Below are positions 25,736-57,160 of a stretch of DNA of 64,000 bases, piece after piece. Made by a program: the position numbers and the translations under genes. Within the stretch, counting starts at the first letter, position 1; each line of letters starts with the position of its first letter. The notes below the pieces were generated by a model. It did no database searches. It saw only the letters and a list, made by a program, of their open reading frames with translations, and was not told the origin of the DNA. Source of the DNA: Ceratodon purpureus (Eukaryota > Streptophyta > Bryopsida > Pseudoditrichales > Ditrichaceae); contig CM026430.1 of the NCBI GenBank assembly GCA_014871385.1, positions 3,947,040-4,011,039 on the forward strand, in the 5' to 3' direction.

Positions 25736-26314
25736 TCGTCCTCAGCTCCCAACACCCTTCCGACCCTCACAACGTATAACGCTCTCGACATCATTTAATC
25801 GACGAGTCACGAATGTGGAACTTGAAGAGGAAGGGACCTGTATAGGAACACAAAAGAGCTAAGAATGAAATTGTATCTCATGTTGTGTACCTCCATTACT
25901 TAATCTGGTTGAAATTTTTAGATTTGCAGGGTGCCATGAGTCCATAGTTTGTAGGAGTATGAGTAATCGATTTACTAGTTTATTTTAAATGTTTTGTACC
26001 ACCCAGACGTTATCCTTGCTTTTTCTTTGATCAGTTTAGATATGCTCTCCATCTCCAGTTGCAGCAAGCTCACTGAAAGCTGAGACTTGTGAAATTAAGC
26101 CGTTCTGTTTAGGATCCTGCTTCCAAGGTGCACAAGATTATCTGGCTATCTCTGACGTCGGTGAGTGATAATCAAAGTGCAAGTGGAGGTGAAGGTTTTC
26201 GAACTAGTGAAGTAGCGTCAGAGAATGCTACAAATTGGTTAACCAGGGTACCGACTCACCGACTTGGGCAGAAACTTTAACCCACTTTTCTAGGCTTCAC
26301 AAGTTCACAGGACT

Positions 26315-37470: not shown

Positions 37471-37643
37471 TGCCACGAGGAGAGCTTTCAATTCCGTCCA
37501 CAACTCCCAACCCCCTTTTGACCATCACAACGTATAACGCTCTCGACATCATTTAACCGAAGAATGTGGAATTTGAAGAGGAAGGGACCTGTATATGATC
37601 GCAAAAGAGCTAAGAATGAAATTGTATCTCGTGTACCTTCAAT

Positions 37644-37780
37644 CATGGTTGTCATAATAGACCGACCGTCCGTCAGTCCGTTAGTCCGTCATGGTGACAA
37701 GACAAACCCCCGCGTCCGTCACATAAGGGCGTTGACCAGTTGACTCACGGTAAGGGTAAAACGAATTTACCTAGCGCTGA
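37644..37780 (+). repeat. Left terminal and subterminal region of giant hAT
   Basis: Collinear with 13872-14007 of the small element, from the terminal inverted repeat through repeats of GTCCGT to CCTAGCGCTGA. The repeated CCGTCCGT/GTCCG motifs are likely subterminal binding sites, as is usual in hAT elements. Confidence 0.88.
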
Positions 37781-37787
37781 ATTAGTG

Positions 37788-38090
37788 CGGGCGCGAGCGC
37801 GATTACGGGCGCGAGCGAGTGGGCGCGAGCAAGACGACGGGCGCGAGCATCCGCGCGAACGCGATGTCACGGGCGCGCGCAGGAGTGCGGGAGAGCGAGG
37901 GCGCGTGCGTCGTTTCGGCCGCGCGCGTGCGCGTGCAAACGGGCGCGAGCGTCGCTGCGGGCGCGATCCAGTTGACGGTCGCGAGCACACTTATCGGGCG
38001 CGGTCATGTGGGCGCGAGCCTGGATCGGGCGCGTGCGTTCGAGCGAGTGCGCTGCATTGGGCGCCGGCGGTCGGGCGCGAGCGCTGCAGG
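37788..38090 (+). repeat. GGGCGCGAGC motif array 1 (left end)
   Basis: About 13 occurrences of GGGCGCG(A/T/C)(G/T)C in 300 bases, separated by 5-30 variable bases. The array is adjacent to the left subterminal region and downstream of the kinase gene. It is far more GC-rich than the surrounding DNA. Long Arg/Ala-rich open frames here are artefacts of the repeat. Confidence 0.9.
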
Positions 38091-38262
38091 TTAGTAGGGA
38101 AAGAGCGACATCGGGCAAAATGACAAGAGAGGAAGAGGGCAATTGAGAAGTGCAATGTTTATTGAAAAGTATTGCAAAATTGTGGCAGTAAACCACTTAC
38201 AAAAAATGTCCCCTCTTATGGAGAACTGAGAATATCACATTGTTGTCACTACTTTCCTACTT

Positions 38263-39830
38263 CTAAATATGTTTGCGATAACAACACTCTGGGATCTGGA
38301 AATTGTAGGGAGGGGCTGTTAGAGTAGCGTGGACCAACTGCAAGGTGGAGCGGTTCTTGGGATCCGGATTTGTGAGCTCCTTCAACGCCACCGCAAATCT
38401 AGCCTTCCTTGCTCCATCCTTGAAAAGGTCGAAGTCGTCCTCGTCCTTCCAAATCATATTTGCTACCACTCCAACCGAGTACGCATCGGCAGCCTGCGTA
38501 TATAGATGCCTCCTCCTTAGAGTTTCATATGAGGTCTCCAAATTTGGCTTACCATAAGTGTACCACAACTCCGGAGCGACAAAAGTACCACGTTCCTTGA
38601 AGGCAGCCGTACGCGCCTCAGCAGTTGGATAACCGTACCTTGAAGGAGTTGTTTCACACACCCGACTTGCAAGGCCCCAATCGCATACTCCAATGTAAAC
38701 TTCGCTCACTTTATCCTCTGGGAAGTGAAGCAAGACGTCTCCCGGGGAGATGTCATTCTGCTGCAAATACCCCTTATGGACCCGGTCCATAATACAGATC
38801 AGTGCCCAAGCTAGCTTGACCCTATGGGTGCGGAAGGCCTTAACACGGTCACGTGTTTCCATGGGCATATCGGTCTACTTGTGGATGTTACGGTTCTGAG
38901 TACCTCACCGATATTTGAATTGAACTTGTTCAGAAAATTCTGCAGGCAATCCCCATTCCACCAAAGCGTATAGGCTTCCATCGTCCAGTCATTGACCGCA
39001 AAAAACTTAATAACGCCGGGATGGTCAATCCTGCAAACCATGGCTTCTATTGATGTCTCGTACCGCTTCTGGGTCTCGTCAGGAGCCTTGGACATCTTCC
39101 CCGCAAAGACACAAGTCTCAGGTATGGTTTGCATGCCAACAATACGTAATTTTTGGACTTTACCATAACCGCCTTCCTTTGTGCCTGACAGCGGAACCAA
39201 CTTGACCCTTCTTGGAACTCCAACCACTGCTCCCCACAAGTACTTCTCCATTGCGCTTTTCAGTCCAGCTTCAAGCCATGGCCTCACCCTCGTCCTATTA
39301 CTCGAGAATCTCGCGCACAAATCCTGGACATATTTGAGCTTCTCTATCTCCTCCTTCTGCGCCCGCGAGTAGCCCTCCTTCGGCTTCTTGTTGACACACT
39401 CAAAGACATGCACAATGTTCGTAGTGTTTGTTGTTATTTGATGCTCCATCCACTTAGGGAAATGAAAGTAATGAATACAATCATTATATCTCTCGGAATT
39501 GTCCAGCTTCTTCCACAAATACTCTTCCAACTGGGTCTTCAAGTCCTTAATTCCGGTCTCCCCCTTCTCAACATATGTACGGGTAATCATCTCCCGTTTC
39601 CGACATCCGTACCACTCCAATGCTAGCTCTCTAACGAAATCCTGGTACCGAGGAGGTGGGTAGTCCGGGTCCCTCTCACTCGCCGACTTCCGGTTCTTCT
39701 TTCCCGATGAGCTCGATGACGGGTTTGAACCTGTATGAGATGGTGCTGTGGAGGTTGCCACCACGTCATCTACAGGAGCATCAAGATCTACGTAGGCGGG
39801 GCGTTTCCCGGATCCACGAGAGACCGACAT
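38263..39830 (-). pseudogene. Divergent protein kinase gene (hAT cargo), frameshifted
   Basis: Two overlapping minus-strand frames form one kinase of about 520 residues if a single base is missing near 38863-38865 (a CCC run on the coding strand). The start at 39830 (MSVSRGSGKRP) is preferred over the upstream 39941 ATG because of the TATA box and leader. An N-terminal region of about 200 residues of unknown type is followed by the kinase domain: Gly-rich loop GGYGKV (220-225), Lys in VFAGK (about 245), Glu in SIEAMV (about 262) and DHPGVIKFFAV; after the shift come QNDISPGDVLL replacing HRDxxxxN, CDWG replacing DFG, and VAPE. The catalytic Asp and Lys equivalents remain, but His-Arg and the usual Asn are lost, so activity is uncertain. 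Flanking motif arrays and the shared promoter layout mark it as an element gene. An unrecognised intron or assembly error could also explain the shift. Confidence 0.8.
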
Positions 39831-40007
39831 AGTTGGAATAATGAACTGGACACACAATAAAAAAAAAACAAAAGATCCCCCCCCCCACCCAATCTGGTTG
39901 CTCCCACTTCCTGCGGTTCCAAGCAGAGCACGTGGAGTCACGAGCTAGGCCAAGGAGCCACCTGGAAGAGGAGACTTTGAAAAGTAGAAAATAAGGGTTA
40001 AGGGGCG

Positions 40008-40016
40008 CCTTTTATG
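40008..40016 (-). promoter_or_regulatory. TATA box of kinase gene
   Basis: CATAAAAGG on the minus strand, about 180 bases upstream of the kinase ATG and directly downstream of motif array 2. The layout matches the three other minus-strand genes of the element. Confidence 0.65.
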
Positions 40017-40020
40017 CTCC

Positions 40021-40370
40021 CCTCGGCTGATCGCGCCCGTAAGCGCGTACACGCGCGCGCACAGGGCCTCCACACGCGCCCGTCCGCACCCGCCCGTCCA
40101 CCGCGTTCGCACGGGGGACTGCCCGCGCCAGTGCCCGCGTGTGCGCGCCCGTGCCCACGTGCGCGCCCGTCAGCCCACATCGGGCGCGCCCGACGCCGCA
40201 GGCGCCCGTGCCCGCATGCTCGCGCCTGTAACCCTGTGCACGCCGGTTATCTGTACGCGCGAGCACGCTTCACGCGCCCGTGACCGTGCACGCGCCCGTC
40301 CCCGCGCACGCGTCCGACTCCGTGCACTCGCCCGCCTTCTTGTACGCGCCCGTCCCCGTGCACGTGCCCG
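40021..40370 (-). promoter_or_regulatory. GGGCGCG motif array 2 (kinase promoter)
   Basis: Many minus-strand GGGCGCG-type motifs (written CGCGCCC on the plus strand) immediately upstream of the kinase TATA box. Confidence 0.75.
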
Positions 40371-40711
40371 GATATGCAGCGTTACATACACTGTACAGGT
40401 TTGGTTACGGTATACTCGTATATTGAACAGAATACAAAAAAAAATCACTACGAAATTACTCAATGGAGATATATTAACCGCATTTAGCGCTCAAAAAATA
40501 ATACAGAGCACAACCATACAATTCCTTCGATTGTGAGATAATGAACTAGGTTGACTCTAAGTAACAGTATAAGTCTACGTAATAAGAAGGTGCTACTAAG
40601 AAAAAAAAAAAAAAACATTAAGAATAACATAGTATTTTTTTTGGGTTTTTAGCCGGTAGATTTTATGGTTAGATTTACTGCTACTTCATGCGCTAAAAAG
40701 GTGACCACAGT
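40371..40711. other. Spacer between kinase promoter and transposase tail
   Basis: AT-rich, with an A14 run near 40601-40614. No feature recognised. It probably holds the transposase 3' end. Confidence 0.4.
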
Positions 40712-41158
40712 CTAGACTCTCCTTGCTTTGCGGGGCTTCTTCTTGCGTGAAGATTGTCTTTTCCGAGCCACAGTGGGCCCCAATTCGTGCCGGATTATCA
40801 CATCTTCATCATCTGGCGCCTCATCGCAATCTGGGTCTTCCTCCTCTGAGTGCTCGTTGTCACCTTCATCCTCAGGAGCTCCGACCACTGGAGCTTGTAC
40901 CTCTCCTTCCACCTCCGATGTAATATTGCGCACTTGCATGGAAACTTCACCCGTATCGCCATCTCTGGCACTTACTAGGCGCTTCATAGGCCTCTCCTTT
41001 CCGGAATTACCGATGGCTGTGATGCCATCCTCACTGATTATGCGTGTGCAAACAACCCCAGTTCCAGAAGATGGCCCCCCTTCAGTGTACCCTGTATAGA
41101 ATGGAAGGGGATCAGGTCCGGTTCTTTTGCTTGACTTTCGTGTTCCTCCACGGGGTTC
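40712..41158 (-). pseudogene. In-frame C-terminal extension of the transposase after a stop
   Basis: The frame continues without another stop for about 148 codons after the TAA at 41159-41161. The translated tail is rich in acidic residues (DNEHSEEEDPDCDEAPDDED) and ends in a basic nuclear-localisation-like cluster, RKKKPRKARR. This composition looks like a genuine protein end, so the ancestral transposase was probably about 1,148 residues. Confidence 0.5.
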
Positions 41159-44158
41159 TTATGATGGTGGTTTCCTAACAACCTTGTCTGTGGACTTCTT
41201 CGCACCACGTTGGGCCACATTCTGTACGGCGTCGTCTATAGCTGGCGCCACGGGGACTAGCTTGGCGGTGGAGGCACCACGCCGACTACCACCAGCTCGA
41301 TTGAGTGGAGGCCTCGCCGCTGCAGATGATCTAAGGAGTCGAGCTATTTTTGCGCCCATTGAACTTGTGGGCCTCCGAGCCAGGCCTCCATCCACGATTG
41401 TATATGGTTCGATACCCCCCATACCAGTGGATTGCGATGGAGGCACAGTCCGTGCGGGGATCGCGTGAACGGTCCTTCTCTCGTGAGCAGGAGGAATCTC
41501 TTGAAGCAAGCTTGAGTCTCCTTGTGCCGGAACGGTTCCCCAGTTGCCCTCCCCACTAACGAGGCCGGTCCAATGAGGTCCATCTGCAGCCCGTCCATGA
41601 CTTCCATCACCCCCTTCGTCATTGTCCTCGTCATCATCGCCAGCATGGATATCGTTGCCAAGATGGTCCTCGCTGGATGAATCATCTGCAACCCCGTCAT
41701 TGTTCTTGGGATTGATTTGGACTGGAATAGCATCTCCTTTGTCACGTGCGTCTCTTCCTTCTGCATTAGCCGCTTCATCAAATACTGGGAGTGTGGGTAA
41801 TTCGTCTCCATAGATGTTCATGTCCGGGTTTCCCTGGTTATATTCTGGTTCATTGTTGAAGTCGTACGCATCACCGTTATCATCGTGGTTGTTGCGGTCA
41901 CGAGGATTGTTGCGGTTAGCGTCACCGCGCTCGTTGCCATTACCGTCGTTCTGCCCATTCGTGTTAACGTCGACGTTATCATGTCCCCAAACATCATCAT
42001 CCCCACTGCCTGCGTGGTCAACTGGTATGTAATGATCGTCGTCATCTCCGTCCTCTTCGCTTGGATCTCTCTCCGGATCTGACTCCTCTGACCATGCATT
42101 GTTCTCGTACCATCTGAGGGGGTTGGGCTTTGGGCGTTCGCGGAGGAGTCTGCTATTCGTATAAATGTACACCAAGGCCTCAGACTTCTCCAACCCCAGG
42201 CGGTTGCGTACCTTGTTGTGGACAAACGAATACATGCTCCAATTCCGTTCACACGATGAGGCGGAGCAGACCTGAGATAAAATGCGCTTCGCAATGATTG
42301 CCAAGGGCCCCCCTCCAATCCTCTGCCACCATTGATGGGGTTCCAGATTCAAACCTTTGATATCGATGGTCACTTCGGGGCTGTAAGGGCCACGTCCCTC
42401 GTCGAACTCGATCATCTCTTTCATAAGAACGGCAAATGGAATTCCCATTTGGCCACCCACGTGACGAAACACCCGATTGAGAGCCGCCTTCGCTTCTCCT
42501 ATGGCTTGTAAGCCCTTATGCGTTCTAACCCAAGGGTTCAAGAGCGCCGCGGCATAATGAAGATTGGTGAGCATCATGTCCCATCTACGGTCGAACCGCA
42601 TCTCCATCCTTGTTGCCATGACCGGTGGGAAAAAGCAAGGGGATCCTCGGAGACTGTACACGTGATCCTTTAGGTTGCTCATTGTAATCCATGCCTTGCC
42701 CATTGCCGGCTGGTTTCCATCGAAGGTTCTGAGAGCTACCAGGGCTGGTTTCACTAGGTGCGTGAAGTTGTCACACTGATGCCAAAACCCATCATCACGA
42801 ATTGTTTGACGCACTACGCTTGCGCGTGCATGATTACGCACCCCCTCGGTTTGGTTGAATAAACCGTCGACATAATCGAACCACTCCGCTGCCATGACCA
42901 CTTGCTCCAAAGCAAATTTAACCTCCATAAGGCGCTCTATCATCAGATAGTTACAAGCGAATCTGGTTTCAGCGGGAACCACCAAGGACAACTTCGGTTC
43001 AAATTTGCGGAAAAGGGCCATGGGAACATGATGTCTCCGAATATAATGACACACGTGTTTAGCCTTGGCGACCAAATCCTTCACAAAGACTTCCTTGCCC
43101 CAGTCCTCCATAAGAAGATCTAGAATATGGGCACAACAGCCCTGCTTGTACATGTGAGGAAACTCCTCTAGGATATTATCCATGGCGCCAAGCATGTTGG
43201 CTGCATTGTCCGTGCAAATCTGGACAACATTCTGAGGGCCAATTTCTCGAATATATTTCTTCATCTCCCCGGCAATATATCCCATTGACTTCTTCTCGCC
43301 AGTCGTATCAACAGACCCAAGAAATACATCGCCTGCCGGACATACTAGCATGACATTCATCAACGGTCGGCGATTCACATTATCCCAACCATCGGAGCAT
43401 ATGGTAGCCCCGTATAACTCGGTCGAGGTTTTCGTACGTTCATCAATCTTTGCCTTGATCAACTTCTTTTTTTCCTTGATGTGCGTTGTTCGCATCGCGT
43501 CATAGGAAGGAGGACCGTAGTTAAATCCGGCAGCCGCGGTTGTGCTCACCGCCTTAATAAATGCTGGGTGCTTGGCCACGTTGAATGCGACGTTGGCTTC
43601 GTAAAAGAAGGATGACCACAACATGTCCAGCTCCTTTCGCTTGGCGATCTGGAGTGCTTCACTCATGTCCTGTTGCCGCAAGCTCCTAGTGGTATTCGAA
43701 CCGGCCCTACTAGGTGCAGCACTGGAGACATTTTGGTCCTCTTCGGTATCATTATACGAGGGTTCGGATCCACCGTACAGAGTGCCGTGTGTGGAAGCAC
43801 TAGAGCACGGACGTTGAACTAACGCGGGGTATGTTGGCCTTATACCATCCATCTCCTCCTGTGTCAAAGGGCCGGGAATCTTCCCACCGCAAAACTGAAA
43901 CTTCCTCTTCACTACGGTAGGTGCCTTTTGGCAAACCCTCGAGAGATTGGACTGGTCCCATCCATAATGCTGAAAGCACCTAGACTTCACGTACGAAAAC
44001 TTGGTCCTGCAATACACACATTGGGCTACCTTATGTGACAGTGACCCTTCCTGGAGCTTGACCGTAAACCATGGTGCCCACTCTCTCGTACCGAGTCTCG
44101 GAATGGCTCTAGCCGGAGCAACCACTTCAACCGGTTCAACCGCTTCAACCGGTTCCAT
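41159..44158 (-). CDS. hAT superfamily transposase (BED-like finger, DUF659, hATC)
   Basis: A 999-residue open frame. An N-terminal BED-type finger has Cys47, Cys50 and His64 (CVYC..CFQHYGWD). The RNase H-like core has the first catalytic Asp in CSDGWDN (Asp256), the second in CTDNAANM (Asp317) and the downstream CAHILDLLMEDW helix. The hATC dimerisation region near 600-670 includes WWQRIGG and the SSCERNWS signature with Glu637, followed by HNKVRNRL. The family recognises terminal repeats and cuts the element out through hairpinned flanks, leaving 8-bp duplications, exactly as seen at this element's ends. Residues 690-990 are an acidic, Asn/Asp-rich disordered tail. The frame stops at TAA but stays open beyond. 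The catalytic parts look intact, so activity is possible. The TATA box is at 44403-44410. The gene is on the same strand as the other large cargo genes. Confidence 0.95.
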   Translation of the reverse strand: MEPVEAVEPVEVVAPARAIPRLGTREWAPWFTVKLQEGSLSHKVAQCVYCRTKFSYVKSRCFQHYGWDQSNLSRVCQKAPTVVKRKFQFCGGKIPGPLTQEEMDGIRPTYPALVQRPCSSASTHGTLYGGSEPSYNDTEEDQNVSSAAPSRAGSNTTRSLRQQDMSEALQIAKRKELDMLWSSFFYEANVAFNVAKHPAFIKAVSTTAAAGFNYGPPSYDAMRTTHIKEKKKLIKAKIDERTKTSTELYGATICSDGWDNVNRRPLMNVMLVCPAGDVFLGSVDTTGEKKSMGYIAGEMKKYIREIGPQNVVQICTDNAANMLGAMDNILEEFPHMYKQGCCAHILDLLMEDWGKEVFVKDLVAKAKHVCHYIRRHHVPMALFRKFEPKLSLVVPAETRFACNYLMIERLMEVKFALEQVVMAAEWFDYVDGLFNQTEGVRNHARASVVRQTIRDDGFWHQCDNFTHLVKPALVALRTFDGNQPAMGKAWITMSNLKDHVYSLRGSPCFFPPVMATRMEMRFDRRWDMMLTNLHYAAALLNPWVRTHKGLQAIGEAKAALNRVFRHVGGQMGIPFAVLMKEMIEFDEGRGPYSPEVTIDIKGLNLEPHQWWQRIGGGPLAIIAKRILSQVCSASSCERNWSMYSFVHNKVRNRLGLEKSEALVYIYTNSRLLRERPKPNPLRWYENNAWSEESDPERDPSEEDGDDDDHYIPVDHAGSGDDDVWGHDNVDVNTNGQNDGNGNERGDANRNNPRDRNNHDDNGDAYDFNNEPEYNQGNPDMNIYGDELPTLPVFDEAANAEGRDARDKGDAIPVQINPKNNDGVADDSSSEDHLGNDIHAGDDDEDNDEGGDGSHGRAADGPHWTGLVSGEGNWGTVPAQGDSSLLQEIPPAHERRTVHAIPARTVPPSQSTGMGGIEPYTIVDGGLARRPTSSMGAKIARLLRSSAAARPPLNRAGGSRRGASTAKLVPVAPAIDDAVQNVAQRGAKKSTDKVVRKPPS

Positions 44159-44402
44159 AGTGAATGATTAGGGAAGTATCGGGACTAATAGGACCAGCAG
44201 TACCAAAAGATTATTATCTGATATAACTTAGTGTGTCTGAAATGTGCTTGACACATTGATTTATGGAGAGAAGAATTTTTACATTCCCCCCACCCAAACC
44301 AAGTGTCTCCCCAAGCTAACAGTTTCAAGCAAGGAGCCCTCAAGGAGACCCAGGACATGAAGCACGCAAGGAGGTAAGGTGGATGTCAAATCAAGGGGGC
44401 AG

Positions 44403-44410
44403 TTTATATA
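44403..44410 (-). promoter_or_regulatory. TATA box of transposase gene
   Basis: TATATAAA on the minus strand, within GGCAGTATATAAACTGCC, about 245 bases before the ATG and next to motif array 3. Confidence 0.7.
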
Positions 44411-44419
44411 CTGCCGCCC

Positions 44420-44670
44420 TCGACCGGGCGAGTACTGTCCGGACGGGCGCGATCCAACGAGCGCGCGCGCACCAGGAGATCGGGCGCGCTCCGACGCGAA
44501 CGGGCGGGCGCAGGTGGGCGCGCGCGGGGGTCCGGGGAAGACAGGCGGGGGCGGGCGCATGCGGGCGCGAGCGCTGGTTCGCGCAGCGGGCGAGCGCGGG
44601 CGGAGAACGGCGGGCGAACGCAGGCGTGGGCGCGCACGGGCGGTTGGGTGCGGGCGCGATCGAATGGGCG
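44420..44670 (-). promoter_or_regulatory. GGGCGCG motif array 3 (transposase promoter)
   Basis: Dense GGGCGCG(A/C)(G/T)C-type motifs, mostly oriented on the plus strand here, immediately upstream of the transposase TATA box. The high local GC contrasts with the AT-rich coding flanks. Confidence 0.75.
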
Positions 44671-45003
44671 AGATTGATATGGGCAGCTCAATTCACTGAG
44701 AAAAAATAACAATGAGAGGGAAAAATGAATAAAATTTAAAAAAGTTGAAGTGTGTGAACTACAAACACGTGAACATGTACATGAAATAAAAGGAATCCTA
44801 TTTAAGTGAAAAGATTGAGAAACATGAGAGTGCGGGAGGACTACCCACCCCATTCACACATGTCTAAGAACTGGAGCAGGTTCTCATCTCGCCCTTCATG
44901 TTTCTGCCCTCCCACTGGAAGGTAAGTCGTTTTAAGCTAACCTCAGGCAGTGTTAATTTAAAATATGGGATAAATTTTACTAGTTACTGCGTTAATCCAG
45001 TTG
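44671..45003. other. Spacer with possible plus-strand leader
   Basis: AT-rich. A strong donor CTGGAAG/GTAAGTCG lies near 44920 on the plus strand and could belong to a leader exon transcribed rightward from motif array 3. No protein frame is supported. Confidence 0.3.
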
Positions 45004-45240
45004 AAACCACGAGCGAGAGCGCACGCGGCGTAGTTGGGGACGGGCGCGAGCAGGCGCGCGCGAACGGGTGGGCGCGAGCAGGGCGCGCGCAGTTCGGCGA
45101 GCTCGCGACCGCGCGTGGAGAAAGCGGGCGCGCGTGTGCGCGCGCGCGTGGGCAGGTTCAATGGGTCGCCGCGGACGCGATCGCGCGGGCGCCTGCAGGC
45201 GCGGACGGACGGGCGCGATCCAACAGGCGCGCGCAATGAA
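45004..45240 (+). repeat. GGGCGCG motif array 4
   Basis: An array of GGGCGCGAGC and GGCGCGCGC motifs in about 235 bases. No minus-strand gene starts next to it. The nearest start is the small plus-strand frame at 45480. Confidence 0.8.
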
Positions 45241-45479
45241 GTTTAAAAGTCGTAAGTTCAAAAAAAATAAAAATAAAAAAAGGTAAGGGAGAGAATGGAC
45301 TACACTGAAATACCATACATCAGTATGGGAGATTGGAGTACCCAAAAGAAAATAAAATAAAATAAAATAAACGAAGTGGCATTCGAATTTATTAAATAAA
45401 CACATCTACCTTAGTTGCGAGGTTCAGCGAAGGGAATTTGTCTCTGCCGTACTATTTTCAACGAACGTCTTCTCCACCA

Positions 45480-45626
45480 ATGGCCATATCTTCTGCTACA
45501 TCTGAAACAATGGATATTAACGAATCATCAGCTGAACTCAAGCGCTTAGAGGATCTTCAGGTGACTCTGGGTCGACCCGAAGATTTACTAGCTTTAGTAT
45601 ATTATAAAAATGAACGGACGAAATGA
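45480..45626 (+). CDS. Short plus-strand frame, possible first exon
   Basis: 48 codons from ATG, starting MAISSATSETMDINESS, with a Glu/Leu-rich helical stretch. An internal CTTCAG/GTGACT could act as a splice donor. I recognise no family. It is the only plausible plus-strand frame inside the giant element and sits downstream of motif array 4, but the case is weak. Confidence 0.25.
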   Translation: MAISSATSETMDINESSAELKRLEDLQVTLGRPEDLLALVYYKNERTK

Positions 45627-46035
45627 GAGAAGGAATTAAATGAAAGCGTAGTATTCAAAGAAGGGGGAAAAAAAAAAAAAAAAAACAAATTAAAGAGTGT
45701 GGGAATATTAAACAAAAACAAGGGGATAGGATGGGAGAGTGGTGGAATCATAAAAATGAACGGACGAAATGAGAAAAGGAATTAAATAAAAGCGTAGTGT
45801 TCAAAGAAGGGGAAAATAAAATAAAAAACAAATTAAAGAGTGTGGGAATATTAAATAAAAACAAGGGGATAGGATGGGAGAGTGGTGGAATCATAAAAAT
45901 GAACGGACGAAATTAAAGAAGGAATTAAATAAAAGCGTAGTGTTCAAAGAAGGGGGAAAAAAAAATTAAAAAAATTAAAGAGTGTGGGAATATTAAATAA
46001 AAACAAAGGGATAGGATGGGAGAGTGGTGGAATTA
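45612..46035 (+). repeat. Three tandem copies of a unit of about 145 bp
   Basis: GAACGGACGAAAT starts at 45612, 45758 and 45901. Each unit contains GTTCAAAGAAGGGG, an A-rich run, AAAGAGTGTGGGAATATTAAA and GGGATAGGATGGGAGAGTGG. The differences are mainly in the A-run length. Confidence 0.93.
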
Positions 46036-46057
46036 TAAAATTTATTTGAGTGATGTT

Positions 46058-46665
46058 GTTGGAGTGCTCGCGCGCGTGCAAAACGGGCGCGAGCACAAAT
46101 GGGCGCGAGCGCGTGCGGGCGCGTGCAAATGGAACGAGGGAGTTCGGGGGGAGAAATTAGTTCCATGATATGGTTGCAGTGCTCGCGCGCGAGTATTGAC
46201 GGGCGCGAGCAGTCAGGCGCGTGCAAGATCGGGCGCGAGCGGAATGCGGGAGACATTGTGGGGAGAGAAAGAGTTTCAGAATTACGCGACCGTGCGTGCG
46301 CGGTTGGTTTGACGGGCGCGCTCAGGACGCGCGCGCGGGTACGGGCGCGTGCAAATGGAAAAGAGAGTTTGGGGAGAAAAATTAGTTCCTCAACAAGGTT
46401 GCAGTGCTCGCGCGCGTGCAATGTCGGGCGCGAGCAGTCGGGCGCGTGCGAAATCGGGCGCGAGCGGAACGACGGAGACACCGTCGGGTGTTCCACATTT
46501 CGGTATCCGTTCGCGCGCTGTTGGTGCGATGGGCGCGAGCAGTTCGCGCGCGCGCGTACGGGCGCAATCCTGGGTTTACTCTCGCTGGGGGCAGGTTTGC
46601 GGGCGCGCGGGTACGCACACTACGGGCACGCGCAAACGCACGCGTGCATGCGGGCGGGTTCAGAG
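46058..46665 (+). repeat. GGGCGCG motif array 5 within larger tandem units
   Basis: GGGCGCGAGC and GGGCGCGTGC motifs are embedded in a unit of about 225 bp containing GAAATTAGTTCC and GTTGCAGTGCTCGCGCGC (starting near 46174 and 46399, with a partial earlier copy at 46060). This is the largest array and lies 3' of the RING-type gene. Confidence 0.85.
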
Positions 46666-47075
46666 TTCAAATCCAAGTAACATAAAATTCAGTCCATAAG
46701 TTAAATACACTTACAATAACTTAAGTTCTCTTACCGTGACTTAAATCCACTGACCATATTAAACATTTTGGTGTGCAACAGAGATATTTATACACTTATC
46801 ATACGATGGAAGGAGATGAGACAACGGGCGGAATGAATAACATGATTGGCAATCAAAAAAAGGGAGGCCAATGTATTATGTAGGGAGAATAAAAGCGTCT
46901 TGAGAACCGCGACAATGATTTACAAAAGAAAATTATCATCCATTGTTTGAGTTTAACAAACATTAAACATGCGAATGTAATCCTAAACCTATCCAATTCC
47001 CTATGCCTTCTACATGTATTTATATTCCGATATCTTTTTACAAAACGTGGTCTTCACTCATGGATCTCCACGACG
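46666..47075. other. Spacer 3' of the RING-type gene
   Basis: AT-rich, with short direct repeats of the type ACTTA(A)..TCTTACCGTGACTTAAATCCACTGACC near 46705-46760. No gene. Confidence 0.4.
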
Positions 47076-48344
47076 TCACGTGCCCGGTGCAGAGGAACTT
47101 GATCCACCCTCATCGTGTCGAGCACGAGAGCTACCGGCTGCACTACTTTCTGCCCCATCGTTAGCGATGAGTTTCCGCTTTGCAGAACGGGTTCTCTTCG
47201 CTATGCCATCTCCTCCAAGCATTGCTTCCATGAAGTTGTTGTTGCGCATCCGACGGAGCACTGTTACAGTCTCCGGAGTATGTTGCGCACATAGGAAATC
47301 CACGGCTTGAGTCTTGAACAATATATCCCATTCAGATTCCGCGGTTTGTATCTCATTAGCGATCTGGAGATCCTCTTCAGTCATGTCATGCAACTCCTTG
47401 ATCTGATCCGCAACCAACTTCCCTTTGGAATTCCACTTAAATCCAAGAGGATGGGGGCCGTACTGGAATGTACGAGTTTGAATATCCCAGTGCCCATGTA
47501 GCACTTGGTAGAAGAAATTCCTCCTTCCCTCGAGTTCGTCCTCCGTCCCGCCCTTGATGAGTTCGTGGCAGATCCTTACAATCTCCGTAGGATCCTGGTC
47601 CCACCTCCACTGATCGCTCATTTGTTTAACATAGGACTGGTGCATTCCCATAAGCCAATTCCAAATCAAGTCCTCACCCCACTTGTCCGGAAAGTCAGGA
47701 GTATTTTCCTTATTTTGCTCCCAATGCGGTGGCATCCAATTCACTAGGCCGAATTGCTCATAAAAACGCTTGTGTAAGGGGGCCTTACATACTGCACACC
47801 GCCGACGTATCAAAGCATGGGAAATCAGGCATTGTGGATGATACATGCAGTGACAAGATCCCAATGACCAGGCCCCCTCTGGCCCAAATGGATTGTAACA
47901 AACGGGACACTTGGTTCCATCCAACACATACTTCTGTGGATTGGGCCAGAGCAATCTTGGCTGGGCAGTACTATTCTCAGGGATCTTCTCATTGGATCTA
48001 GCGGTCTTGTACTCCCACTCCAACTGCGTCCAATCTATTTGCTTACCAATCATCGGTATGTCGTCATGGAACATTTCATCTGGATCTGCCCACGAGGTAA
48101 GTCCGAAATCTCTCTTGGAGTTAAGCTGGAGGTAGTCGCGGTCAATCCTCTTGAACTCATCGTGCATCTGTCTGTGACGGTCGACGTTCATGATGCATAC
48201 AATCTTCCATTGGTAGTACTGTCTGCTCATCTGGATCAGATACTTTCTAAGCATCCCGTTGGTAGCTTGCAATTCGGAAACAGTGGGTACCGATGGCTGT
48301 TGAAATCCCAAAGAGTCCTCCGTCTCTTGAGAATCCACGAACAT
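47076..48344 (-). CDS. RING-type zinc-finger protein (C-terminal part of a larger cargo gene)
   Basis: 422 codons from the first ATG. A zinc-binding module has Cys146-x2-Cys149, Cys164-x-Cys166, His169-x2-Cys172 and Cys183-x2-Cys186 (CPVC..CHCMYHPQC..CAVC). This C4HC3-like arrangement resembles RING/RING-CH fingers of E3 ubiquitin ligases but with unusual spacing, so ligase activity is an inference. Downstream is a Trp-rich region (WEQNKENTPDF..WNWLMGMHQSYVKQM) and a basic tail KRTRSAKRK that could be a nuclear signal. The frame is open upstream to the C18 run, and one C fewer would join it to the coiled-coil frame at 48247-49647, making one protein of about 856 residues. I think that fused form is the real gene. 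Confidence 0.75.
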   Translation of the reverse strand: MFVDSQETEDSLGFQQPSVPTVSELQATNGMLRKYLIQMSRQYYQWKIVCIMNVDRHRQMHDEFKRIDRDYLQLNSKRDFGLTSWADPDEMFHDDIPMIGKQIDWTQLEWEYKTARSNEKIPENSTAQPRLLWPNPQKYVLDGTKCPVCYNPFGPEGAWSLGSCHCMYHPQCLISHALIRRRCAVCKAPLHKRFYEQFGLVNWMPPHWEQNKENTPDFPDKWGEDLIWNWLMGMHQSYVKQMSDQWRWDQDPTEIVRICHELIKGGTEDELEGRRNFFYQVLHGHWDIQTRTFQYGPHPLGFKWNSKGKLVADQIKELHDMTEEDLQIANEIQTAESEWDILFKTQAVDFLCAQHTPETVTVLRRMRNNNFMEAMLGGDGIAKRTRSAKRKLIANDGAESSAAGSSRARHDEGGSSSSAPGT

Positions 48345-49647
48345 GATTTGCCGCTGGGGGGGGGGGGGGGGGGTGCATCACTTGACTTGATGACGCGAAT
48401 GGGATGATTGGCTTACGGGGAACTCGGATCGGGGTATCTTCTAGGAGACCGTGCGTGGCCGATTCAATGATGGCATTCACGTCTTCCTCGTTCATTCCAG
48501 GGCTACCAGGGATTGGAGCTTGGCTTGCCTCGGGTACGTAAGTCAGAGTCCTCGCAGATCGAAGTTGCGAAATCTCTTCATTCTGCTTCCGTATAATCTC
48601 ATTCATCCTATCAGCTTCTTCGTACAAGTTCTGGATAGTCTTCTCCATCTCATAAATTATTGCATTTTTTCCTTCCAGCTCCATCTGCAATGCATCGCCT
48701 TGCGGGCCCTGGGCATCAGCGGCGGCTATTGTAGCCTCCAACTCATCTGCAAACCCAATGTCATCATCTTCCATTACATCACTCGGGCCCGCAATCTGTG
48801 GATTCAATACATGAGGAGCTACATCAACATTGCTCGGGCCCGCAATCTGTGGAAGTAATATAGGAAAAGCAACATCAACATTGCTCGGGCCCCCGACGAT
48901 TGCTGGAGGAGCCTGATGAGGAATACCCGGTCCAGTAGGATTTGCAGGCGGTGCACGATTCCTCGTCGACAAACAGGCAGCTAGCTCAGGATCCTTCTTT
49001 TTTAACCGTGTGATTCTAGCACTAGTCGCTGCTCTTGTTTGTGACTGAGCGGGACGGTCTACCGTACCATCAGAATCACTATCCTCCCCTGAGTCACTCC
49101 AATCACGAGGCAAATGATCCTCAGGATCATCCGCGTATTCCCAGTCCACACCTGGAAATTTTAGGACCCCTGTAGGTATCACCATCTCTCGTGGACGCTG
49201 CTGGACGCTAGGAGTCAACCGTATGGTCCTCCAATCCACCTGCCTATGAAGCATTACCTCGGCATATACCATTCTACAAATAAAGAGCGGAACCTCGTTT
49301 CTATCGTTCATCGCTCGGTTGTATAGAACCTGCCACACCTCCAAACACTGCCTCCCGAACTGACGGTTCTTGCAAAATCTCATGTTCGCCTTGTTTGAAG
49401 TACGATTTTTATTATGGCGGTGCAACGGGAATAACTTCCCAATGTGGCACCATTCAATGAATTGTTCACACATTGCTAGACTCCACGGTTGCGGTGCAGC
49501 TTCCCACCCTCTGAATGCCAGCTTTGCAGGATTCATTAAGACGTGAACCCTCTTATGTTGGATGGTTCCATGCCGGACCCGTCCTGCATCCTTCTGCTTT
49601 TTCCTCTGCTCTGCCGCCGTGGGCTGATCTGGTCCTCGCCGTTCCAT
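48247..49647 (-). pseudogene. Coiled-coil N-terminal part of the RING-type cargo gene, frameshifted at C18
   Basis: The start at 49647 (MERRGPDQPTAAEQRKKQK) is chosen over the upstream 49725 ATG. A conserved-looking globular region (residues about 30-160, rich in Trp/Cys/His) is followed by an acidic linker (DDPEDHLPRDWSDSGEDSDSDG), a repeated IAGPSNVDVA-type motif (three copies), a predicted coiled coil (MEKTIQNLYEEADRMNEIIR and nearby) and a Pro run encoded by the C homopolymer. After the homopolymer the frame becomes unrelated residues and stops at 48247, whereas the neighbouring frame carries the RING part. I recognise no family for the N-terminal region. TATA box at 49922-49929. Confidence 0.7.
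48356..48373 (-). repeat. C18 homopolymer at the frame junction
   Basis: Eighteen G on the plus strand (18 C in the coding strand) encode polyproline. A length of 17 or 20 would keep the coiled-coil and RING parts in one frame; 18 separates them. Confidence 0.95.
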
Positions 49648-49921
49648 AGCTGCTCGAGGTAGACCGTTCTTCGAAGTCTTCCAAAAGTGCAAAATTAAAA
49701 GGCTACGACTACCCCAAAACCTCAATCACATTTACAAATTATAAACATTTACAAAATTCTCAAATGTACCACACAGACACCATAGAGTTCTGGAGAACAA
49801 AAACAAAGACACGTGTCAGAGTGCTGGGACCCACCTGAGTACCACGCAATCAGCTACCCGGGGGCTGTTGAAGGCAAGGTGCTCAAAGGGTGGGGAGTGC
49901 AAAATGAGGGGGCAAATCGCC

Positions 49922-49929
49922 CTTTTATA
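49922..49929 (-). promoter_or_regulatory. TATA box of the RING-type gene
   Basis: TATAAAAG on the minus strand in CCCGTGAGTATAAAAGGGCG, about 275 bases before the ATG. GTGAGTATAAA is shared with the promoter at 50768. Confidence 0.7.
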
Positions 49930-49935
49930 CTCACG

Positions 49936-50110
49936 GGCGCCAGAGAACGGGCGGGAACATCTTGCTACGGGCGCGCGCGGGCGTCGTCCGGGTACCGAAG
50001 GGGCGCGCGCGCGGACGTCGATGCGGGCGCGCGGATATTAGTCGGGCGCGATCCGATTTGCACGGGCGCGACCGTCGGGCGCGAACGCTGGATGGACGGG
50101 CGCGAGCACT
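49936..50110 (-). promoter_or_regulatory. GGGCGCG motif array 6 (RING-type gene promoter)
   Basis: At least eight GGGCGCG-type motifs in 175 bases, abutting the TATA box on its upstream side. Confidence 0.78.
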
Positions 50111-50284
50111 AGTCCAGGACCGGCGCCACCACAAACTAGAAAACTGTTAAAAATCAGAGTAACCAAAGAGAACTTGCAAATTCAGAGTTAAAAAAAAATA
50201 CTTTATTTATTTTGAAAATGTATCACTTCATTGTAATGTCGATTACAGTGCCATGCACTCTAGGTACCGGTCCTCTAGGTCTTT

Positions 50285-50695
50285 CTAGTGCGTCTCGAAA
50301 TGGTTCATTTGAGCACTAGAGACAATATTGGGGACACAAAGTATTGCCATCTCCTTCTTCAGTTCTTTGATGAGATCGCCAATCTCACAGTCAAGTTCTT
50401 CGACAGTCGCTTGGGTTGCCAACTGCTCTTCACTGGTTGGAGGCAGAGGGCGTCCATCCTCTGCGTAGGCCACCAATTTGTCACGGCGAGAGATCCAATC
50501 CTCGAAGAACTCAATCAGTTGACGGAGTCGCTCCAACATTGACCAAATAACTGTATCCGTTCGCTGTGCAGTGCCCGGTGGGGTGGCACCATTCGTTACA
50601 CTCATGTACGACTTGATTTGTTGGCAATTGCAGGCGTTGGAATTCATGTTGGACGGTACAGCGATTGTTGAGAAACCCACCGTAACACTAAGCAA
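50285..50695 (-). CDS. Small coiled-coil protein (hAT cargo)
   Basis: 136 codons from 50695, or 120 from the internal ATG at 50647 (MNSNACNCQQIKSYM). The body is helical with heptad-like spacing (WSMLERLRQLIEFFEDWISR; VEELDCEIGDLIKELKKEM), suggesting a coiled-coil adaptor or dimer. No family recognised. Its promoter has the same GTGAGTATAAA box and upstream motif array as the RING-type gene, and its leader shares CAATCAGCTACCC and GGGCTGTTGAAGGCAA with that gene (49847-49876 and 50692-50722). It is the rightmost gene of the element and is intact. Confidence 0.65.
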   Translation of the reverse strand: MLSVTVGFSTIAVPSNMNSNACNCQQIKSYMSVTNGATPPGTAQRTDTVIWSMLERLRQLIEFFEDWISRRDKLVAYAEDGRPLPPTSEEQLATQATVEELDCEIGDLIKELKKEMAILCVPNIVSSAQMNHFETH

Positions 50696-50767
50696 TCAGC
50701 TACCCTTGGGCTGTTGAAGGCAAAATGTACAAAGTGGGGGGGGTGCGAATCAGTGGAGGAGGGTGGC

Positions 50768-50775
50768 AATTTATA
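50768..50775 (-). promoter_or_regulatory. TATA box of the small coiled-coil gene
   Basis: TATAAATT on the minus strand in CCCGTGAGTATAAATTGCC, next to motif array 7. Confidence 0.65.
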
Positions 50776-50779
50776 CTCA

Positions 50780-51084
50780 CGGGGCCGACAATGTGGGCGC
50801 GAGCAGGTTGGGCGCGCGCAGGCTGGTACGGGCGCGAGCACGTTCATCCTAAGCTACGGGCGCGCGCGACCGTGATCGGGCGAGGGTAATCGGGCGCGAT
50901 CACTGTGCGCGCGCGAGACAGACGACGGGCGCGATCACTGCGAGCGCGCGAGACAGACGACGGGCGCAGGCGACCCTGATCGGGCGAGGGTAATCGGGCG
51001 CGATCACCGCGCGCGCGAGACAGACGACGGGCGCGATCAACCACATATGACAGGCGCGAGCAAGCGCAAAGACGCGCGCGGACA
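50780..51084 (-). promoter_or_regulatory. GGGCGCG motif array 7 (right end)
   Basis: Repeated GGGCGCGATCA, GGGCGAGGGTAATC and GCGCGAGACAGACGAC blocks, some in tandem units of about 60 bases. It lies between the small gene promoter and the right terminal region. Confidence 0.85.
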
Positions 51085-51250
51085 CGACGACGGGCGCCAC
51101 CCATGGTAAACAGTAGTAAACTGTGGGGACAGTAATTTTGCTCGCGGTCGGGAGCCCGTCCGATAAGCGTCCGTCCGATAACCGTCCGTCATGTTCGTCA
51201 CGTGACTACATGACAATTTTTTGGCCCGTCCGTCCATTATGACAACCCTG
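51085..51250 (-). repeat. Right terminal and subterminal region of giant hAT
   Basis: Collinear with 15811-15987 of the small element: CGACGACGGGCGCCA, CATGGTAAACAGT, GGACAGTAATTTT, CGTCCGATAAGC, then the inverted repeat. The CCGTCCG motifs mirror those of the left end. Confidence 0.88.
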
Positions 51251-52016
51251 CCTTCAATACTTAATCTGGTTGAAATTTTTAGATTTATAGAGTGCAATGA
51301 ATCCTTGAAGTTCTGATGAGTTATCAATTTACTAATTAATTTTAAAATTTTGTACCACCCAGACGTTATCCTTGCTTTTTCCTTGATCAGTTAAGATAGG
51401 CTGTCCATCTCCAGTTGCAGCAAGCTCACTGAAAGCTGAGACTTGTGAACTTATATTAAGCCGTTGTGTTTAGGATCCTGCTTCCGAGGTGCATAAGGTT
51501 ATGTGGCTATTTCGGACGTCGGTGAGTGATAATCAAAGTGTCAGTGGAGGTGAAGGTTTTCCGAGAGGTTTCGAATTTGTGAAGCAACGTCAGAGAATGC
51601 TACAAATTGGTTAACCAGGGTACCGACTCACCCACTTGTGCAGAAACTTTAACCCAGTACTTTTCTAGGCTTCACAGGAGTATGAACATTTGTAAATCAG
51701 TATACTATTCACTTAATTAGACGAAAATGGCTATTTTAAGGTGATGAACAATTTGGGACATGTAAAATTCCCAAATTAATGAATATAGTGTTTATGTATT
51801 TCTAAGCCACATTAACAACCTAATAAACATGATATATTTCTTAATTTGAAACCACCAAGATCCAAGTGTTGTAATTGTTATAAACTAACAAACATCAAGT
51901 CTAAGGAAGAAGGCAAAAGAAAAATTGCGTTTTAGAGAAAAGAATAATTAGAGTAGGTGCATGTATATAGCATCTACACATGCAAAATAGAAGGCATAAA
52001 AAAACAATGCATTTAA

Positions 52017-52876: not shown

Positions 52877-52880
52877 TTAA

Positions 52881-53892: not shown

Positions 53893-53901
53893 ATTGGACT
53901 C

Positions 53902-54210: not shown

Positions 54211-54219
54211 ATTGGACTC

Positions 54220-56440
54220 CATGTGCAGTCCTACTCTGACTCAGCCACTGTTGCTTTAAGGACGTGGTTGAAAGCATGTACACTACCGGCCAATTAGTAA
54301 ATGAAGATAACACGAAAGCTTGTTATTCAACCACTGTTGCTTTAAGGACATGGTTGAAAGCATGTCCGTGACTACCTAACAATTAATAAAAGGAGATAGT
54401 ACAAAAGCCTGAGTTTGGTACTACAACCGAGGGGACCACAGTTGTCTCCCATAAACACAAATTGATCTTTCAGTATTTCAGACAACTACTACATTTGCGC
54501 AGATCACATTTCTCTCATGTGATGATGTGAAGACATGTACTAAGTCCGTCAACATCTGCGCGGACCACGTTTCTCCCATGTGAAGACATACTAAGTCTGT
54601 CAGTATTGTAGTCGACACAACTCCATGTGCCATGTACCAAAACAACAGTGGGTGAAAATTGAAGTCCTTTAACTCCCTAGCATGTCTTTTTTTTGGGGCA
54701 CATTTTAGTATCATACTTTCCTTATATTGTAAAACTCCATATTGGTTGTTAGATTATAGGCATTGATAATCTAAAAATGATTGTTTTCTACCTTTTCCCC
54801 TCATTCACCAAATACTGTATTACTAAATACTGGGTTTGGGGTGTGTAAGATGGTATACCAGTTGTACACCCAAACCAAACTTTTATTTGCTAAACTTAAA
54901 TGTTTCTTGATATTTATTTCAATCTAACTTCAATGATTCATTTACTTTTTCAAGAATAACTTCATATTTTATTTGTTGTAAAATTATTCAAATTTTATTT
55001 GGAATGATTAAAAACATTTAACTATTTTATCAATATTGGGGTTCATTATATATGGAATCCAATGTCCATGTGTATCATTCATTCAAGTAATGATTGTTTT
55101 TAGTAGTAAAGTATTCAATTATCCCAAAGCTTTGTGCAACTAATTTTAATTATTGGATATCCATCATAAAAATATTCTTGCATTTTTTTCAACATTGAAC
55201 TTTGAAATTAGTGATGGTTTGATATAGAGGCAATGGGAAACGTAGAAGTCTACATGTTGTTTAAAAAATATTAAACAAGTAAGTGCCTATTCTATCACAT
55301 ATGCTTTTATTTCTCTTCTGATTCACATTTGAGTCATGAAAATTGTTAATATAGAATCACCATCCAAAAAATATGTTTTCTTCAGTTTTTAGTCTTCCGA
55401 ACTTTTAAATATTATTTTATTGCATTCAACACTTCTTTACACTCATGTTCAATACTGTGAAAGTCATTTGTGCAACTTTTACAAAAAAATTAATTATTGA
55501 AATTTCCAGGTGGGGGTCATTAAAATTACATGATTCATTGTCTTGGTCTTTATGTGTATTTTTGGGTTTCTGTAATCCATTTGTACTATACATGATAGAA
55601 TACAAGTAGTTGTTTCAGCAAAAGGTCTTAGTGTCTAATGGTAAATATTACATCATAATCATTTTTTTAAATGTACGGTTTTCTGTCAGTCATGTTCCAT
55701 TATAGTTCGGGACAAGATTGTTGAATTTGGACTCATGACGACAACAACATTACAAGCACACTGATAAGCAACCCTCAGTGCCTCACCAGTTTACCTCTGC
55801 TTGCAAATGTAATTTGAGTGTATCCTGGTGCTATGAGTGCATCATGCATTCATGACTAACTTGTCAAACCAACTAGCTCAGAATCCAGATTGATCCAAAT
55901 CTGAAACACAGAATCAACTTCAGAGAGACAATTGATCGCATGCTTTCATCCGTGTTTGCAAAATAACGACTTGAACAAAGTTGCGATATTGCAAAACTCG
56001 ATCGGAGAAGAATAGTTGCAGAACGGGTTTGATGTGCCTGAGTCTGCATGGGTTCAGGCTACTGGATAGTTCGGATGGAAATGCATCCACCAGAGAGTAG
56101 AAAGATTGTGCCCAAGTTGTACAATATTATCGCGGTAACAACTAGCGCATTAGAATTTAGCGTGAACTTGAGTCTTACCCGAAAGCCACTTAGATGATGG
56201 TGGGAGGAGAATATTGCTTGTGAAGTTGGTATGCGTAGCCATCACCACTCTGGAGGTACCGCTCTGGAGGTTGAGGGAAAACTATCTTGGGTTGGCCCAG
56301 TTGCTACGTGGCTTCGTGGCCATGGTGACCGTGCTGATGAGCCATGGTTGTCGAGGTTGACGATATTCAATCTTCACTACGTCACTATTTGGATCGTAGG
56401 GCCGCTGGGGCAGGGCAGGAGGCCTCTGAATTTTTTTGGA
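54220..56440. other. AT-rich body of duplication copy 3 (continued), no supported gene
   Basis: It resembles 21730-22960 and then 24660-25190 of copy 1, but lacks the foldback element of copy 1. No gene recognised. Confidence 0.45.
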
Positions 56441-56717
56441 GTATAAAGAATTGCTCTTCCACAACTAGAATCTTGATTATCCACTGCCTTGTCCGCATAT
56501 CATGTGAACTCTCTTTCATGTGAGCTCATTTTGTGTGTGCCTGCAGTTCCAAGCATGATTTTGTTCCTCGTGTCAATAACTTCTATGGTCAGTTCTACTA
56601 TGTGCCTGCGTACAGTTTCATTCTAATTTCTAGCTGTGTTATTTGTATTTTCTGGTTGGATGGCATCCTGGACGAAGTGGCTAATGGAGCAGGTTTGCCA
56701 GACATTTTCTTGGAGTT

Positions 56718-56857
56718 CCGCAAGGGTATTGGTAGTTGTGGACGAGAGGAAAGCTCTCGTCGGCGCAGGATCACGCAGGTTGTTGTGCACAACAACCTGC
56801 GTGATCCTGCCACGAGGAGAGCTTTCCTGTCATCCTCAGCTCCCAACCCCCTTCCGA
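56718..56857 (+). repeat. Loopless inverted repeat with a perfect 40-bp core (hairpin locus, copy 3)
   Basis: The core 56768-56807 is an exact palindrome: GGATCACGCAGGTTGTTGTG followed by its inverse. The next 19 bases on each side pair with three mismatches (GAAAGCTCTC with GAGAGCTTTC), and about 31 more pair with about nine mismatches. A GTATAAAG lies at 56441. A 119-codon frame (56533-56892) runs through and ends NALDII. Confidence 0.9.
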
Positions 56858-57160
56858 CCATCACGACGCATAACGCTCTCGACATCATTTAACCGAAGAA
56901 TGTGGAACTTGAAGAGGAAGGGACCTGTATATGATCACAAAAGAGCTAAGAATGAAATTGTATCTCATGTACCTCCAATACTTAATCTGGTTGAAATTTT
57001 TAGAATTGTAGAGTGCAATGAGTCCAAAATGTTTATTACTTATTAGTTTACTAATATTCTAAAAGTTTTGAAGAATAAAAATAAGACTCTATTTGCAGTC
57101 GAAGTAGAAAAATGCAGAAAAATGCAAGGTCAGTTCATTTAATGTTAAATGGAGGCCAGT

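Follow-up and report, generated by a model that had tools for sequence, protein, structure and literature searches.

The hAT superfamily of DNA transposons (Ac/Ds, Tam3, Hermes and Tol2 among others) is characterized by 8-bp target duplications, CAGGG-type ends, a transposase with a D-D-E signature and an hATC region, and short non-autonomous relatives, and its textbook autonomous members carry one gene, which encodes the transposase. Here, we describe an element sharing these traits in the moss Ceratodon purpureus, which occupies positions 37,644 to 51,250 of a 64,000-nucleotide stretch of contig CM026430.1 (assembly GCA_014871385.1, positions 3,947,040 to 4,011,039; hereafter the window) and represents a decayed copy of an autonomous hAT transposon with several genes. 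By its transposase, target duplication and ends the element is a hAT; what sets it apart is its gene content, as its copies measure 13.6-17.2 kb and carry three additional genes, encoding a protein kinase, a coiled-coil/RING-H2-like protein and a small protein. En/Spm (TnpA/TnpD) and MuDR (mudrA/mudrB) of maize also encode one more protein in addition to the transposase, but belong to other superfamilies and are without a kinase or RING protein.

Multi-gene DNA transposons are already known. As described in the available passages of one study, hAT7 of rust fungi combines a hAT transposase with a TET/JBP dioxygenase gene and generates 7-bp duplications, and IS3EU elements carry alpha-kinase and TET/JBP genes and generate 6-bp duplications (PMC12730594). 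Going by those passages, the moss element resembles hAT7 in pairing a hAT transposase with an accessory enzyme, but hAT7 is fungal, encodes a dioxygenase and makes 7-bp duplications, compared with kinase/RING genes and 8-bp duplications in the moss. It likewise resembles IS3EU in having a kinase beside the transposase; however, IS3EU differs in transposase superfamily, in its 6-bp duplications and in its alpha-kinase, the moss kinase being of the Pkinase type (PF00069). Styx of Zymoseptoria is also a multi-gene DNA transposon, with four coding sequences and an IS3EU-type transposase, and was recently reactivated (PMC10853768); it is fungal, and the accessory genes are not identified in the passages available from that source. 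Membership of the moss element in IS3EU or Styx is ruled out by the 8-bp duplications and the DUF659/hATC transposase. The name Lanisha is excluded as well, since the cited excerpt places that element as EnSpm-like, in a group with 2-5 bp duplications, and not as a hAT (Maumus, McDaniel and Carey 2020, as cited in PMC12730594).

Among literature titles and abstracts, no kinase- or RING-bearing hAT and no Ceratodon transposon of this kind was recognised. The Ceratodon genome, reportedly also described by the authors of Lanisha, has its own paper, and this paper, its supplements or Repbase may hold an earlier description. In the available parts of a review of land-plant transposons, hAT elements are mentioned once and multi-gene hATs not at all (PMC9033089). 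A hAT with a kinase and a RING gene was thus not met in the literature searched, and a first description is not claimable.

A single insertion with a hAT transposase

Exact copies of the 8-bp target duplication CCTTCAAT abut both terminal inverted repeats of the element, which are 23 bp long and agree with each other at 20 positions (Table 1). Because the duplication is exact and the joined flanks match two paralogous sites within the window, in alignments that run uninterrupted across the junction and contain one slightly diverged target site each, the 13.6 kb in between are a single insertion. The first 15 bases of the left end are identical in all ten further copies retrieved (see below). 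In the element and its close copies, hereafter family 1, left ends read CATGG, which most of the further right ends mirror, and the right end of the window copy reads CAGGGTTGT, as do the ends of a second family. GC content is 51% within the element and 38% outside. The hexamer GTCCGT/ACGGAC clusters in the terminal 250 bp (7 of 14 occurrences for the window element, 7 of 10 for copy C10p and 7 of 8 for a 2.1-kb relative located in the window) and constitutes a candidate transposase binding site.

The transposase gene matches DUF659 (PF04937, 5.3e-35) and Dimer_Tnp_hAT (PF05699, 2.1e-6). Using residues 1-700 of the window protein as query and considering the best-scored candidates only, we found at least 68 relatives, the best of which (P0001) is 96% identical; intact relatives measure 1148 amino acids, and the window copy carries a single in-frame stop in its tail. 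Residues D256, D317, E637 and C341/H344, which we take to be the catalytic and CxxH residues of hAT transposases, are invariant in all 16 of these relatives that were aligned. At the N-terminus, a C-x2-C...H-like pattern is visible by eye, and no zf-BED Pfam match was obtained (E 1; E 0.01). Short terminal inverted repeats of the CAGRG type belong to the definition of hAT elements; the 8-bp duplication, short terminal inverted repeats and a D-D-E transposase with an hATC region occur here together. These results bear out the hAT-type ends, the target duplication and the D-D-E and hATC signatures reported in an earlier first-pass annotation of the sequence, and one of the situations it had named as speaking against its reading, namely ends belonging to different insertions, was not seen.

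As a side observation, the public entry of P0043, a transposase of the element's family, is filed under a Bacilli metagenome bin and is probably a mis-binned eukaryotic contig.

The accessory genes

The kinase gene encodes 522 amino acids and forms a single open frame of 522-555 amino acids in all seven further copies that are whole. With the two window frames joined as query, at least 33 relatives were found among the best-scored candidates, those spanning at least 93% of the query being 512-603 amino acids long. The window pieces give a weak Pkinase signal, and relative P0069 matches Pkinase at 2.3e-10. The best Protein Data Bank matches to an AlphaFold2 model of P0069 (predicted local distance difference test, pLDDT, 76; predicted template modelling score, pTM, 0.60) are kinase domains (E 7.6e-10, template modelling score ~0.6 by target), and the modelled kinase part has a kinase fold. 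The alpha-C Glu and the HxD motif (as HND) are present and the DFG-type motif reads DWG; the 19 relatives aligned, of the 33 found, all carry Lys, Glu, HND, Asn and DWG, and Lys, HND..N and DWG are present in the seven whole family-1 copies and in the second-family copy read. Part of the catalytic loop is lost in the window and intact in other copies. About 200 residues ahead of the kinase domain are common to the kinase family and predicted to be largely helical. On these motifs, the element encodes a catalytically complete-looking protein kinase, for which phosphotransfer is predicted. A 34-nt intron, considered from the window alone, is ruled out, relatives and other copies being continuous at that site. 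When the two protein families were sought in viral contigs, none of 549 pattern matches to the kinase and none of 20 to the transposase was confirmed, and there is therefore no support from that side for a viral origin.

Upstream of the transposase, a RING open reading frame (47076-48377) and a coiled-coil open reading frame (48247-49725) overlap where 18 consecutive G residues occur. These are not two genes, as relative P0102 (850 amino acids, 89% identity over 100% of the 796-residue joined-frame query), most other relatives and other copies have them in one frame: 12 of the 19 matches to the joined query (451-928 amino acids) span at least 98% of it, and the frame is continuous in four of the seven whole copies. 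The RING ligands C-x2-C..C-x-[HC]-x2-H-x2-C..C-x2-C are present in the window copy and in all 15 of the 19 relatives aligned, the fourth ligand being Cys in family 1 and in P0104, and some relatives carry PF13639 or PF14634 in precomputed annotation. We name the protein RING-type, its ubiquitin ligase activity being putative. The small protein has 120 residues in the window and 134 (four copies), 141 or 146 residues (one copy each) in the six further copies with the gene.

All four genes lie on the minus strand, in the transcription order small protein, coiled-coil/RING protein, transposase and kinase. The decay of the window copy consists of the stop in the transposase tail and one frame change each in the kinase and RING genes.

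Other copies of the element

Matches to the left end (40 scored of 409 first-look candidates) and to the right end (40 of 388) could be joined into nine pairs including the window copy, eight of them spanning 13.6-15.4 kb and one 34.7 kb. We retrieved ten further copies, namely the first ten left-end matches listed after the window's own, and extended six of them. Kinase, transposase and RING gene are whole and in the same order in seven (C13m, C12p, C10m, C10p, C9m, C6m1 and C6p); C6m2 is diverged and broken with the order kept, the match in C9p ends inside the transposase, and C11m comprises a left end only. Both ends were reached in six copies, five of which (14,214-17,158 bp; on C6, C9, C10 (two) and C12) show perfect 8-bp duplications (CCTTGCTT, CTGCTCGG, TTCAATAC, CTAAGAAG and CCCACATA); the sixth, C6m1 (14,516 bp), is without one. 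Length differences stem partly from a 143-bp minisatellite, the unit number of which differs greatly among copies, up to a several-kb array in C10p. The left flank of C10p is itself a repeat (49 rows). Across the seven whole copies, the kinase frame is open in seven, the RING frame in four and the transposase frame in two, with all four genes open in two copies.

Across the genome, we scored 82 full-length kinases of family 1 (of 1373 candidates). Of these, 71 contain no internal stop, and 35, a figure that includes the copy supplying the query, are at rounded 100% identity to the query; open-frame counts in these genome-wide lists were read by hand. A listed kinase lies just inside at least 25 of the 40 left ends and 8-30 kb inside at least 21 of the 40 right ends. 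The left-end figure is a lower bound, since among the 15 left ends without a listed kinase are those of the window copy and of C6m2, in which degraded kinases are present, together with that of C11m, which has none. Similarly, 40 of the 53 family-1 RING genes scored (of 1676 candidates) are without internal stop, and at least 37 have a listed kinase within 20 kb, in every case on the same strand and in 35 downstream; for 16 there is no kinase among the matches listed.

An enrichment on the sex chromosome is ruled out: 25 of 83 family-1 kinase rows fall on C6, presumably the V sex chromosome of C. purpureus (as judged from gene tag KC19_VG232100), and this is no excess because C6 makes up 110.5 of 362.5 Mb.

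A second family with the same trio in a different order

Queries taken from more distant relatives led to a second, high-copy family, for which we scored 81 kinases (of 1367 candidates; 77 without stop), 44 transposases (of 1538; 35 without stop) and 56 RING genes (of 1645; 42 without stop). At least 24 of the 44 transposases have a kinase 0.8-1.1 kb upstream on the same strand, an adjacency for which uniform placement predicts about 0.1% each, and one more has a kinase 9.4 kb away in the opposite orientation. Among the 56 RING genes, a kinase lies within 6 kb of at least 24, in divergent orientation every time, and at least 17 have a transposase within 12 kb, 15 in opposite orientation. The copy on C9 illustrates this arrangement, with the RING gene pointing leftward, followed by kinase and transposase pointing rightward. 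Copies on C4 and C1 end in CAGGGTTGTC...AACAACCCTG and have 8-bp duplications (GTCCGCGC and GCTCGAGC); by coordinates, all three genes lie inside these ends, and the two lengths, worked out by hand from offsets, are 11.7 and 12.4 kb. Protein identity between the two families is 48% for the kinase, 50% for the transposase (777 columns) and 38% for the RING protein.

The first-pass annotation had proposed that several genes at the locus make up one transposition system, rather than being passengers on a simple element, and this holds as far as tested, given the rearranged trio in a second family. The comparison it suggested, whether other full-length copies have the same genes in the same order, came out positively in the seven whole copies, and both the kinase and the RING gene are present in all six further copies for which the two ends were reached; the 2.1-kb relative in the window is without both, but is also without a transposase. 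Its inventory of cargo needed revision: kinase and RING-type protein stand, its separate coiled-coil gene is one with the RING gene, and the small gene had been missed. The role it put forward, in which the cargo proteins could govern phosphorylation or turnover of the transposase, or host silencing, is still a proposal.

Separately, the annotated Ceratodon V-chromosome protein P0059 (KC19_VG232100) is 82% identical to the second-family transposase over 761 columns, which raises the possibility that the genome holds a third, related family.

Selection on the accessory genes

We compared the C9 copy of the second family with two family-1 copies. For the kinase, the transposase (~700 codons) and the RING gene, the proportion of differing silent sites (pS) is 0.82-0.85, and that of differing nonsynonymous sites (pN) is 0.31-0.40. 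Since the proteins are conserved while silent sites are saturated, this comparison points to purifying selection acting on kinase and RING gene alike.

Within family 1, the ratio of nonsynonymous to silent divergence (dN/dS) relative to C10p, pooled over six copies, is 0.31 for the kinase, 0.52 for the transposase, 0.51 for the RING gene and 0.28 for the small gene; single comparisons range over 0.14-0.56, 0.37-0.69 and 0.34-0.74 for the first three, respectively, two being without silent change. The constraint on the accessory genes at this level looks like that on the transposase and is not clearly stronger, and the argument therefore rests on the comparison between families.

A shared upstream layout

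GC-rich arrays recur along the element, the one inside the left end being of the GGGCGCGAGC type (Table 1). Their motif set (GGGCGCG, GCGCGAGC and complements) reaches 6.2 per kb in the window element, with no occurrence in its coding sequence and, leaving aside the 2.1-kb relative, none in the rest of the window. All seven genes analyzed in C10p (four) and in the second-family C9 copy (three) are preceded by an array, with a TATA-like box 18-41 bp past the start of the last motif, a layout recovered per gene in 0-4% of shuffled 60-bp segments; it also precedes all four genes in the window copy and in C12p. These results are suggestive of an array-TATA layout shared across the genes examined in both families.

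What the accessory genes may do

Taken together, the repeated association of kinase and RING genes with the transposase, seen in numerous copies and again in a second family, argues that they are working parts of the element and not stowaways, a reading we hold to be likely and which implies no particular target. Under this proposal, one pair of hAT ends would mobilise the transposase, the kinase, the coiled-coil/RING-H2-like protein and the small protein; the genes would be switched on together from the array-TATA promoters, and the kinase and RING protein would act in trans on transposition, most simply through phosphorylation and ubiquitination of the transposase or of a host factor responsible for silencing. 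The same proteins could also mobilise short gene-less relatives that share these ends. Either specific target, transposase or host silencer, carries lower odds than the claim that the genes are working parts.

Several observations weigh against this reading. The best-studied hAT elements require the transposase alone, and the accessory genes may accordingly be dispensable for cutting and pasting. A full-length open transposase remains in two, and an open RING gene in four, of the seven further whole copies. In the second family, 19 of 44 transposases have no kinase, and 24 of 56 RING genes neither a kinase nor a transposase as partner, among the matches listed, and neither of the two loci read, one of which is partly masked, yielded the small gene. 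Within family 1, dN/dS is only moderately below 1, with one RING comparison as high as 0.74. The RING assignment itself is limited by a window match below the Pfam cut-off (19.3 versus 27.3 bits), by P0102 and P0104 being without a Pfam match at E 0.01, and by a poor structural model (pLDDT 54), too poor for a fold search. Finally, the promoter layout is suggestive and not a clean test, because the TATA-like patterns were picked after viewing the sequence.

A more specific version, which we advance tentatively and consider rather doubtful, is a signalling relay in which the kinase would mark the transposase or a host silencer and the RING protein would remove what has been marked, the shared array promoters being read by an element-encoded protein. 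If true, this would, to our knowledge, be the first hAT lineage with a kinase-RING control module.

Within the preferred explanation, a variant with a substantial chance, though short of an even one, is that the accessory proteins act mainly on the host, for instance against silencing or the DNA-damage response, and not on the transposase. A kinase and a RING protein would make a plausible pair for the removal of host factors, and other multi-gene DNA transposons bear chromatin-modifying genes, such as TET/JBP in fungal hAT7 and in IS3EU, as far as the available passages go (PMC12730594).

That the kinase and RING protein are negative regulators or addiction-like modules limiting copy number would fit their conservation and their shared upstream layout, but appears improbable in view of the high recent copy number, the 35 of 82 scored kinases that are near-identical not suggesting tight self-limitation.

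Even less likely is passenger capture, in which an ordinary hAT took up host kinase and RING genes by pack-type transduplication and carries them without a role. hAT elements can carry foreign DNA, and the within-family dN/dS values would be compatible with such an origin; against it stand the trio found in two families at 38-50% identity, rearranged and with saturated silent sites, the invariant catalytic residues in all 19 aligned kinases, the stop-free frames among the kinases scored (71 of 82 in family 1, 77 of 81 in the second family) and the RING genes scored (40 of 53 and 42 of 56, respectively), and the element's own upstream layout before the genes examined.

A chimera or assembly artefact, in which the ends would stem from different insertions or nested elements, can practically be discarded, since the degraded state of the window copy and its position within duplicated DNA are outweighed by the exact duplication, the two empty sites and the five of six further copies with the same ends, perfect and differing duplications and the gene order kept.

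Conserved accessory genes and a high recent copy number in a tractable moss allow a direct test of whether cut-and-paste elements evolve regulators of their own, for the transposase or for host silencing, and the trio, present in both families but arranged differently, offers natural replicates. The 163 kinases and 109 RING genes scored could, without their transposon context, be mistaken for moss gene families.

Features and surroundings of the element

Table 1. Features of the element and related sites in the window (positions within the 64,000-nucleotide stretch)
Feature	Position	Strand	Remarks
Non-autonomous relative, 2116 bp	13872..15987	+	both element ends; 8-bp target-site duplication CTTTTGGA
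Paralogous empty site 1	25691..26301	+	86% to joined flanks, crosses junction
Left target-site duplication CCTTCAAT	37636..37643	.	identical to 51251-51258
Left terminal inverted repeat, begins CATGGTTGTCATAAT	37644..37666	+	20/23 positions identical to right end
GC-rich GGGCGCGAGC-type array, inside left end	37789..38088	.
Protein kinase gene	38263..39830	-	frame change in window copy; Pkinase on relative P0069
GC-rich array upstream of kinase	40032..40351	.	TATA-like box near 40016
hAT transposase (DUF659 + hATC)	40712..44158	-	by Pfam and relatives; in-frame stop near 41159
GC-rich array upstream of transposase	44445..44658	.	TATA-like box near 44408
GC-rich array, intergenic	45042..45217	.
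143-bp minisatellite	45604..46040	.	3 units in window; several-kb array in C10p
GC-rich array, intergenic	46058..46607	.
Coiled-coil + RING-H2-like gene	47076..49647	-	single gene, split at G run 48356-48373
GC-rich array upstream of RING gene	49969..50104	.	TATA-like box near 49929
Small gene	50285..50647	-	120 amino acids; present in 6/7 further whole copies
GC-rich array upstream of small gene	50795..51039	.	TATA-like box near 50775
Right terminal inverted repeat, ending ...ATTATGACAACCCTG	51228..51250	-	compared with left end
Right target-site duplication CCTTCAAT	51251..51258	.	identical to left copy
Paralogous empty site 2	56375..57068	+	87% to joined flanks, crosses junction

The 2.1-kb relative matches the element over 159 bp at the left end (85.5% identity) and 189 bp at the right (80%), has GC-rich repeats of its own and contains none of the element's genes, transposase included; judged by its sequence, this gene-less copy looks like a non-autonomous relative.

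On both sides of the element, positions 11500-37600 and 51300-59100 consist of repeated segments, several of them spaced ~14.5-14.8 kb apart and ~60-99% alike in parts. The pattern is as from tandem or segmental duplication, in which case the element would sit within one unit and the other units would provide the empty sites.

At some distance from the element, Copia-type retroelement pieces occupy positions 1421-4051 on the plus strand, with RVT_2 and integrase core matches (the latter below the Pfam cut-off), and a 338-amino acid open frame at 6228-7244 is inositol 1,3,4-trisphosphate 5/6-kinase-like (Pfam 1.5e-74).

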